Assembly (NCBI GenBank): GCA_041447175.1
Contig: CP166960.1
Location: forward strand, 1,139,507 to 1,203,506
DNA length: 64,000 nt
DNA from: Candidatus Bathyarchaeia archaeon
GTDB lineage: Archaea > Thermoproteota > Bathyarchaeia > Bathyarchaeales > Bathycorpusculaceae
Reading direction: 5' to 3'
Part shown: positions 11,193 to 32,476 of the stretch, piece after piece
Numbering within the stretch: the first letter of the stretch is position 1
How the letters are laid out: each line of letters opens with the position of its first letter
The notes under the pieces: generated by a model
Told to the model about the DNA's origin: nothing
Database searches by the model: none
The model's input: only the letters and a program-made list of their open reading frames with translations
Program-made: the position numbers and the translations under genes

Positions 11193-11331
11193 TTCTTTTT
11201 CACCAGACCTTGATAGTGAAGCGGCTGTTTTTGTAGTTATTTTTTCGCTTTTACTTTTCCCCTGAAGGAAGTACCTGAAAGGGGCATGCTTATTTTTGGT
11301 TGTTGTGGTTGTAGTGTTACAGTCACAACAG

Positions 11332-11340
11332 TTTTTATAG
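11332..11340 (+). promoter_or_regulatory. TATA-like box
   Basis: TTTTTATAG on the + strand, about 65 nt before the first hairpin of the candidate RNA locus. Read the other way (CTATAAAAA) it could equally serve the - strand TIM-barrel gene, although 140 nt from its start. Confidence 0.3.
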
Positions 11341-11401
11341 AAAACAAACCAAGAAAACCATGCGGAACGGGAAAGCCATAGCAAGGTAGAACACCTTGAC
11401 C

Positions 11402-11915
11402 TTGGCGGGTCAACGTTACCTAGATGCGCACAACATAAGCTCCTCACGGATTTTCGTTTAGTACGCATCAAGTGACTGTGCGACCCGTCCAAGGAAAGTT
11501 TTCACAGCAGACAGGAACACCTTTGCGGTTCAGGTTCATGAATTAAACATACGATGTACAGTGTTTGTGTTTATTTCAGTCAATCAGAGTTGGCTCTTGC
11601 CGCATTTTTCTGCTACACACATACCGTTTTATCTCATTTAGATGTTATAGGTTAATGCCGACTCTGAATCGCAGCAACGCAGTGCAATTGGCGGGTCACC
11701 GGCAAGTTGCGGGCAGCTAACGCCATCTCCCCCACTGGTGGTTTCTTGTCCTCCCCACAGCAAGACGGTGATCTGCCGAGCCAACGTTCTGTAAGCAACA
11801 AACCGAACAGATGTTGTTGTGTAATTGATGCAGCATTAATTTTTATTGCCTTAACTCCTAATAAATTACAGGTGACAAAAAGAGTACATAGCAACCAAAT
11901 GGGTTTGGCGGGTCA
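11402..11915 (+). repeat. Three direct copies of TTGGCGGGTCA
   Basis: The identical 11-mer occurs at 11402–11412, 11688–11698 and 11905–11915, all on the + strand within a gene-free stretch. Near-inverted copies (GACCCGTCCAA at 11482–11492; TGACCCGT at 11932–11939) allow the first and third copies to form stems. Confidence 0.6.
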
Positions 11916-11945
11916 GAACCTTTGGTTAACGTGACCCGTTTTTCT
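11404..11945 (+). ncRNA. Candidate structured non-coding RNA in an ~800-bp gene-free stretch
   Basis: From 11193 to 12004 there is no convincing gene. The interval holds nested hairpins: a long stem-loop 11404–11488 (GGCGGGTC with GACCCGTC, and inside it GATGCG with CGCATC), a GC-rich multi-helix fold around 11700–11800, and a terminal hairpin followed by T5. A TATA-like box precedes it on the + strand. It could be a housekeeping RNA such as RNase P or SRP RNA in a divergent form, or a lineage-specific RNA; I could not match the family-defining motifs of either, and strand is uncertain. Confidence 0.35.
11907..11940 (+). terminator. Strong hairpin plus T-run
   Basis: CGGGTCA-GAACC-TTT-GGTTAACG-TGACCCG folds into a 7-bp outer and 4–5-bp inner stem and is followed at once by T5 and a pyrimidine tract. 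It would end a + strand transcript coming from the candidate RNA locus. Confidence 0.5.
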
Positions 11946-12004
11946 CCTTTCTCCTTTGAGTTCACGTTGATCTTTCTTTCTGGTCCGCCAAACCAAACCG
12001 AGAG

Positions 12005-12373
12005 TTATTTTGTCTCTTTTTTCTTGGAAGCTGATGATTCGGGGTTGAGTTGTTTGTATAGCGAAAACAGGAAGGTGTCTATTCGTTCACGGGTGCGTCC
12101 AAAATCTACGGTTCCAGTTATGGTTGTAACGGGGGTTTCTGCTGAAAGAGCTACCTGCGTTTTGTTTTCGCCTGAAGCCGCAGCTTCAGCCGTTATGTTC
12201 GAGGCGTAAGCCATAAAGGTCCCTTTGGTTTTGGTTTTAAGCTTATGAGTTTCGTTGTCGGATTCTTCAAGCGTCCACTCTAAACTGGAAACAGCTTTGA
12301 CCATAGCTTCCCACACCTTACCAAGTGGGTAATCCAACTCTACAAGCTCGTTCTCTTTGCGCAAATACGCCAT
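12005..12373 (-). CDS. Small conserved-type hypothetical protein
   Basis: 122 residues, alpha/beta in appearance: an acidic N-terminal strand, an amphipathic helix (GKVWEAMVKAVSSLEW) followed by beta strands rich in Thr, ending in a Lys tail. The pattern 'helix, then W-x2-EESD, then strands' recalls DUF3568-like or SRPBCC-like small domains but I cannot name a family. The ATG at 12373 is preferred to GTG 12382. It is followed downstream by the candidate RNA locus on the other strand. Confidence 0.6.
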   Translation of the reverse strand: MAYLRKENELVELDYPLGKVWEAMVKAVSSLEWTLEESDNETHKLKTKTKGTFMAYASNITAEAAASGENKTQVALSAETPVTTITGTVDFGRTRERIDTFLFSLYKQLNPESSASKKKETK

Positions 12374-12439
12374 ACTTTCCACGAAGATTTCGTAACAAAA
12401 CTCGTATTTAAAAGGTTCATCCCAAAAACAAACAGCAAC

Positions 12440-32370: not shown

Positions 32371-32388
32371 CTACGTTGTCTCCGCTAA

Positions 32389-32455
32389 GGTAGGCATCAT
32401 CAGCGACCGCTGTGGCGCGGTTTAGACATTCACTGTCTAGGCTAATGCCATAGCC
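32389..32455 (-). promoter_or_regulatory. Fluoride riboswitch (crcB motif)
   Basis: Read on the - strand: GGCTATGGCATTAGCC (first stem with ATGG), a variable hairpin, AAACCGC…GCGG, and CTGATGATGCCTAC near the 3' end. These are the conserved blocks of the crcB RNA motif, in the right order, 20 nt before the crcB start. Binding of fluoride should raise crcB–DUF190 expression. Confidence 0.88.
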
Positions 32456-32476
32456 ACCTCAAAACGGGGTTAAACA

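Follow-up and report, generated by a model that had tools for sequence, protein, structure and literature searches.

The gap between two minus-strand genes in the window (the whole stretch of 64,000 nucleotides that was analysed) is a tandem array of three members, copies A, B and C, of a multi-copy structured RNA gene family, an assignment that is strongly supported. The evidence for a non-coding RNA locus is likewise strong, and comprises covariation, a common promoter motif, T-run ends, conservation across genera and the lack of a common reading frame. For the family as a whole, multi-copy structured RNA genes are almost certainly the correct reading. Each member is predicted to be a stand-alone RNA gene with a typical length of about 120–150 nt. 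The family has no match in Rfam 15 and no description among the top literature listings.

Three RNA copies in one gap

The window belongs to a genome assembled as one contig of 2.73 Mb (G000); G002, G003, G004 and G006 are genomes of the same genus. The left flank of the gap is a minus-strand gene for a xylose-isomerase-like TIM-barrel protein (PF01261, E 6e-27), and the right flank is a minus-strand orphan ORF of 125 aa (12005–12382), with the RNA copies on the plus strand between them. A Pfam search with the 125-aa ORF returned no match. This protein is present in 10 of 60 genomes, its own genome counted, and its gene adjoins RNA copies A and/or B in G000, G002, G003 and G005.

A preliminary description of the locus had proposed one structured RNA gene built around a repeated word. 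Its non-coding RNA character stands, but the gap holds three units rather than a single RNA, and each unit has a closing stem of its own. The three exact 11-mers, TTGGCGGGTCA, are present as described, at 11402, 11688 and 11905, all on the plus strand. With up to one mismatch, the word occurs 4 times in the 64 kb window against 1.23 expected, and 3 of its 9 exact copies in this single-contig genome lie in the gap. The 11-mers do have inverted partners, but folding places all three of them, and not two, in closing stems. Also borne out are the nested GATGCG/CGCATC and the TATA-like box ahead of the element (both listed below). The hairpin with five Ts that had been placed after the element (about 11910–11945) is instead an alternative fold within copy C and is missing from the terminator scan list. 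The third element extends beyond that point to its closing partner, GGTCCGCCAAACC.

Two covariance models were used to delimit the copies. R1 was built on eight copies outside the window (the D copies) and contains no window sequence. R2 was built from A8, an alignment of 26 copies cut at E 0.00225, which omits four antisense matches seen at 0.3 and also copy A of the window and copy B of G003. The features of the gap are as follows, with the basis of each copy in brackets.

11303–11328, plus strand: imperfect palindrome TTGTGGTTGTA-gtgt-TACAGTCACAA upstream of copy A (read directly)
11332–11339, plus strand: TATA-like TTTTTATA of copy A (read directly)
11360–11502, plus strand: copy A, small RNA gene with 5′ segment, long hairpin and T-run at 11499–11502 (R1, R2, counterparts)
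11400–11411, plus strand: copy A closing stem, 5′ arm CCTTGGCGGGTC, which holds the first 11-mer
11423–11428, plus strand: copy A upper stem, 5′ arm GATGCG
11464–11469, plus strand: copy A upper stem, 3′ arm CGCATC
11482–11494, plus strand: copy A closing stem, 3′ arm GACCCG-T-CCAAGG
11627–11632, plus strand: TATA-like TTTTAT of copy B, within a block conserved with G003 and G005
11655–11790 (start approximate), plus strand: copy B, small RNA gene (R1, R2, counterparts)
11688–11698, plus strand: copy B closing stem, 5′ arm, the second TTGGCGGGTCA
11882–11998 (start approximate), plus strand: copy C, the most diverged copy (R1, R2, own fold)
11905–11915, plus strand: copy C closing stem, 5′ arm, the third TTGGCGGGTCA
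11982–11994, plus strand: copy C closing stem, 3′ arm GGTCCGCCAAACC

When R1 was run on 11200–12200, copies B, A and C were the three top matches, each in register with the TTGGCGG stem. Copy A matches R1 at 11369–11503 (15.4 bits, E 7.2e-5 over 1 kb) and R2 at 11369–11502 (21.5 bits, E 0.002 in 440 kb), and has a same-site counterpart in G003 and G002. Copy B matches R1 at 11688–11779 (18.1 bits, E 1.3e-5) and R2, to whose training set it belongs, at 11666–11790 (37.3 bits, E 1e-7 in 440 kb); its counterparts are in G003 and G005. In the window genome, copy B has a TATA-like block, but lacks the strict promoter box defined below and a terminal T-run. Copy C scores lowest (R1: 11903–11995, 9.8 bits, E 0.0031 in 1 kb; R2: 11882–11998, 19.1 bits, E 0.0089 in 440 kb). 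It has neither the common promoter box nor a T-run, and no counterpart in the G003 alignment, and may therefore be a duplicate that is either recent or decaying. When 60 relatives were searched at the DNA level, parts of the gap turned up in two genomes of the same genus as well as in G000 itself. In alignments with relatives, A and B are conserved as two separate units, of which G005 retains B only.

Fold, covariation and conserved elements

The plus strand of 11340–11950 folds more stably than its shuffles (z −3.63, 0/20 as low), and the minus strand of the same interval does not (z −1.11, 3/20 as low). Folded singly, copies A (z −3.60) and C (z −5.61) both fall below their shuffles, while copy B of this genome is no stronger than its own (z −0.87, 39/200 as low).

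Comparison of related genomes, which the preliminary description had proposed, brought out covariation. In a MAFFT alignment of the eight D copies, which is not model-fitted, RNAalifold predicted 22 pairs, 10 of them with compensatory double changes. Across the 26 copies of A8, 91.4% of cells are paired, and compensatory double changes are found in 17 of 22 pairs and 67 cells; none of 500 shuffles was as high, and slid structures paired only 26–44%. The more distant set, A9, gave 93.1% paired, with double changes again in 17 of 22 pairs and in 96 cells, a count that took all 28 rows, including two antisense rows and three duplicates of A8 copies (L076, L078 and L174). Both alignments are model-fitted, and their pair counts therefore lean towards the model. 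When MAFFT was used to align A, B and C to distant copies, the 3′ arm was misaligned and RNAalifold returned 0 pairs; the model-based alignment was used instead.

The family structure predicted from these alignments is a single long three-part hairpin with the closing stem UUGGCGGGUC/GACCCGCCAA. In a typical member, the hairpin would carry a C-rich apical loop, GUCCCCUCAUUCCCC, and be accompanied by a single-stranded 5′ tail, GUGUCCUGAAGCCAUCA in the best-conserved copies, with the core AGCCAUC. The D copies have in common GTGTCCTGAAGCCATCA, the long hairpin and the C-rich loop. The UUGG/CCAA and GGCGG/CCGCC segments of the closing stem vary little although they are paired. The AGCCATC tail is found in 17/26 A8 copies and, after removal of the two antisense rows (as for all motif counts on this set), in 13/26 A9 copies. 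UCCC occurs in the loops of 22/26 A8 copies (46 occurrences, against 11 in shuffles), but in only 12/26 of the more distant A9, which has three copies in common with A8. The motif is repeated inside single loops, and some copies of another genus have a CU-rich loop.

Promoter motif and 3′ ends

The palindrome upstream of copy A is probably a regulator-binding site and part of a family promoter motif. Conservation with G003 resumes 20 nt beyond the adjacent TTTTTATA. The pattern CAGTCACAA-N{0,12}-TTTATA matched at nine sites in six of the 21 genomes scanned, each of the six from the same genus, against 0 matches in the 21 genomes for a reversed-pattern control. Eight of the nine precede a similar RNA unit, the exception being the match in G001; the two in G000 are at 1774201 and 1774846 (D copies).

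A strict box was defined as [GA][TC]CACA-N{3,13}-T[TA]TA within 75 nt upstream, and 3′ ends were scored for a run of four Ts, in a set of 54 copies from which antisense rows and three duplicates had been removed and to which five copies with hand-set ends had been added. The box is present upstream of 39/54 copies, and in 35 of these 39 its end lies 22–32 nt before the start used. It occurs in 87/20,000 random Bathyarchaeal stretches, in 78/20,000 when the random control also draws on bacterial and viral loci, and in 7/384 upstream regions of called genes. A T4 run ends 46/54 copies. Copy A of the window shows box and T-run alike. Box and T-run are consistent with an archaeal promoter and with termination at T-runs.

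Family size, distribution and genomic neighbours

At least eight copies are present in G000: A, B, C and those at 1774246, 1774888, 318041, 194475 and 1950831. A search of 18 further stretches of this genome (360 kb) with R2 gave a best E of 0.06. Model searches of genomes were kept within the class. At E <= 0.01, R2 matched 29/90 genomes of the taxonomic family, distributed by genus as 6/7 in the window's genus, 2/2 in g14, 20/32 in g12 and 1/3 in g24. At E <= 0.001, matches were found in 28/256 genomes of the class, of which 26 are of the same family and 2 of another family of the same order. A 17-mer scan of the genome collection recovered 19 stretches. Seven have full R1 matches, all in Bathyarchaeota, and the other twelve are bacterial, with short R1 matches of at most 20.7 bits. 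Carriage on viruses was considered and rejected: in the 32 viral contigs carrying the 15-mer, the R1 matches were all short and weak (best 18.6 bits).

Among the copy-bearing loci, 23/25 have an ORF (>= 100 aa, E < 1e-20) in common with such a locus of another genome, a count that widespread families, ABC ATPases among them, push up. The genes that recur beside the copies encode an ABC ATPase with an ArsB-type permease, an FMN reductase with a phosphoesterase, a chaperonin, a ketol-acid reductoisomerase and CbiZ. The orientation of the copies relative to these neighbours is mixed. In g12, two copies lie tail to tail within 500 bp at L171:1501–1634 (+) and 1841–1962 (−), and a second such pair is found at L172:1501–1626 (+) and 1762–1886 (−).

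Known RNA classes and alternative identities

The preliminary description had suggested an Rfam check that included RNase P and SRP RNA; among the 4227 models of Rfam 15, these two included, none scored as high as its gathering cut-off in the gap. The weak matches there, to microRNA and lncRNA models, fell far short of the cut-offs. For 16 loci with other copies, the sole Rfam match was a tRNA in L156, and a tRNA/tmRNA search of the window found none. Elsewhere in the window, a fluoride riboswitch aptamer (RF01734) lies at 32384–32464 on the minus strand (41.6 bits against a gathering score of 34). C/D box guide RNAs have the C box RUGAUGA followed by the D box CUGA. This class was rejected, the C box being found in 0/26 A8 and 0/26 A9 copies.

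Inverted-repeat ends and many copies are also what repeated palindromic DNA without RNA function (REP, MITE-like elements or a binding-site array) would present. Such REP/MITE-like repeats are dispersed at unrelated sites and do not show compensatory stem changes, whereas the copies described here have compensatory changes, an unpaired tail and loop that are both conserved, a promoter box whose distance varies within narrow limits, terminal T-runs and neighbourhoods that recur across genomes, and an origin of this kind is very improbable. No greater likelihood attaches to cis-regulatory leaders (riboswitches or attenuators) of the neighbouring genes. Some copies do precede a gene in the same orientation, as the copy at L153:4042–4170 does with its FMN-reductase-like neighbour, but others point away from the adjacent genes or towards them, the type of adjacent gene varies, most copies have their own box and T-run, and both genes flanking the gap in the window are on the strand opposite to the copies. 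A small protein gene in the gap is the least probable of the three, to the point of being hardly credible. ORFs of 48–95 aa lie within or overlap the gap, at least one frame is open across the element in 18/26 copies, and a 65-aa minus-strand ORF over copy B has 20/44 identities between G003 and G005. Yet the open frame varies among copies, with no frame open in more than 7/26; the distances between stem arms divide evenly among the three frame classes (9, 9 and 8 of 26); and the similarity of the G003 and G005 ORFs coincides with conserved RNA and promoter DNA. A clear protein gene detected by homology, which the preliminary description had named as one finding that would speak against it, did not emerge: none of six ORFs tested had a Pfam match.

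Proposed mechanism and candidate targets

The best explanation of the family, and one given about an even chance, is a set of sibling trans-acting sRNAs whose C-rich loop would mask Shine-Dalgarno sites. Each typical member would have its own promoter, composed of the imperfect palindrome TTGT..TGYA..TRCAGTCACAA and then a TATA box, with the transcript predicted to start about 25 nt downstream of the TATA box and to end at UUUU. One factor binding the palindrome could switch the copies together, and the copies would be transcribed as sibling trans-acting regulators. Pairing of the C-rich loop with the Shine-Dalgarno region of target mRNAs would then block their translation. Silencing of mRNAs by loop pairing, taken by itself, could equally be right or wrong. 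The candidate target is a family of TrmB-like regulators, although this family is rather less likely than that to be a true target.

The complement of the loop core, TGAGGGGA, is found at 3 of 384 G000 gene starts, as called by a crude gene caller. One of the three genes encodes a TrmB-like regulator with GTGAGGGGACatcacatATG (Pfam TrmB, E 0.011, below its cut-off). In two TrmB-like paralogs (MVRRSIF...) at G000:C1:405216–405653 and 1079099–1079431, GGGGAC replaces the usual Shine-Dalgarno sequence. All six regulator start sites from G000, G002 and G006 are predicted to pair with the loops of their own genomes at −20.6 to −24.5 kcal/mol, an energy equalled by at most 15/400 shuffled start regions and 9/200 shuffled loops; the six genes are related to one another, and the first target was chosen after looking. 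Two regulator genes of G004, cut by contig ends, were left out. The outgroup site in G019, for which one loop was used and the start codon is uncertain, showed no pairing (107/400 shuffles as low). Close relatives of the regulator (E below 1e-20) were found among 40 genomes only in G000, G002, G004, G006 and G019, all five of which carry the RNA. The RNA-bearing G001 and G003 are without this subfamily.

Across the genome, loop complementarity at G000 gene starts is not enriched (56/385 at or below −16 kcal/mol, against 57/385 for the reversed loop), and in this ranking the two regulators of G000 take places 8 and 10 of 385. The pattern TGAGGGGA-N-ATG was tried as a general mark of targets and rejected: it is not commoner with the RNA, occurring 51 times in about 16 Mb of seven RNA-bearing genomes and 236 times in about 49 Mb of the other 33. 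G000 has seven such sites, and 2 of the 5 examined are plausible gene starts. For the 5′ tail, complementarity to gene starts exceeds that of the reversed tail (113 against 72 of 385 at or below −16 kcal/mol), and no tail-derived target was found at the gene starts sampled. Of 11 tail-matching loci that were examined, six showed RNA copies, two more are RNA copies by a separate search, and three are coding sequence. Neither tail nor loop paired with 16S rRNA better than shuffles. For the conserved AGCCAUC tail, as at L155:4389–4405, no partner was found in 16S rRNA or at the sampled gene starts.

Several of these observations would also suit stand-alone structured RNAs that act through a bound protein instead of mRNA pairing, whether as the scaffold of an RNP or as a sponge that takes up a poly-C-binding protein. 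In that case the UCCCC repeats of the loop and the nearly invariant closing stem would be the protein sites, which accords with the near constancy of UUGG/CCAA and GGCGG/CCGCC despite their pairing, with the recurrence of UCCC within single loops and with the lack of a genome-wide excess of loop complementarity at gene starts. The pairing of six out of six same-genus regulator start sites beyond most shuffles argues against it, as do the CU-rich loops of some copies in another genus, and a protein-binding role is considered unlikely, though well short of negligible.

For the preferred trans-acting sRNAs, a fuller and quite tentative model, no likelier than the protein-binding role, is an sRNA network confined to part of the Bathyarchaeota. 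A dedicated regulator reading the palindrome might switch on up to eight siblings, whose UCCCC loops might silence TrmB-like regulators and other mRNAs, with the AGCCAUC tail as a possible second contact.

Comparison with known sRNAs and significance

The LhrC sRNAs of Listeria monocytogenes are reported to bind a G-rich sequence upstream of the start codon through C-rich UCCC in their loops and an unpaired stretch (PMC4132741). The present family resembles them in having several sibling copies per genome (at least eight in G000) and an unpaired C-rich UCCC seed (in 22/26 A8 loops and 12/26 A9 loops). It differs from LhrC, which is bacterial and is described there as two stem-loops joined by a single-stranded stretch, in having one long three-part hairpin plus a 5′ tail, and in that its pairing is predicted. 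sRNA162 of Methanosarcina mazei is reported to cover a ribosome-binding site, with in vitro and in vivo support, and its pairing part is a linker between stem-loops (PMC3510493). Unlike sRNA162, the Bathyarchaeota family is multi-copy, and its mechanism is predicted from sequence. Sequence kinship to LhrC or sRNA162 was judged through Rfam alone, in which no family matched. The top listings of the literature on non-coding RNA in Bathyarchaeota/Bathyarchaeia and on multicopy archaeal sRNAs did not describe the family.

Starting from a short word repeated in an unannotated gap, one can thus arrive at a whole RNA family. If the proposed mechanism is true, this would be an archaeal multi-copy sRNA regulon, built independently on the logic of the LhrC-type bacterial siblings. 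Bathyarchaeota are a largely uncultured archaeal group. The family supplies a usable covariance model, a common promoter motif, a clear seed and a short list of candidate targets, and sRNA control in this archaeal group is therefore directly testable.
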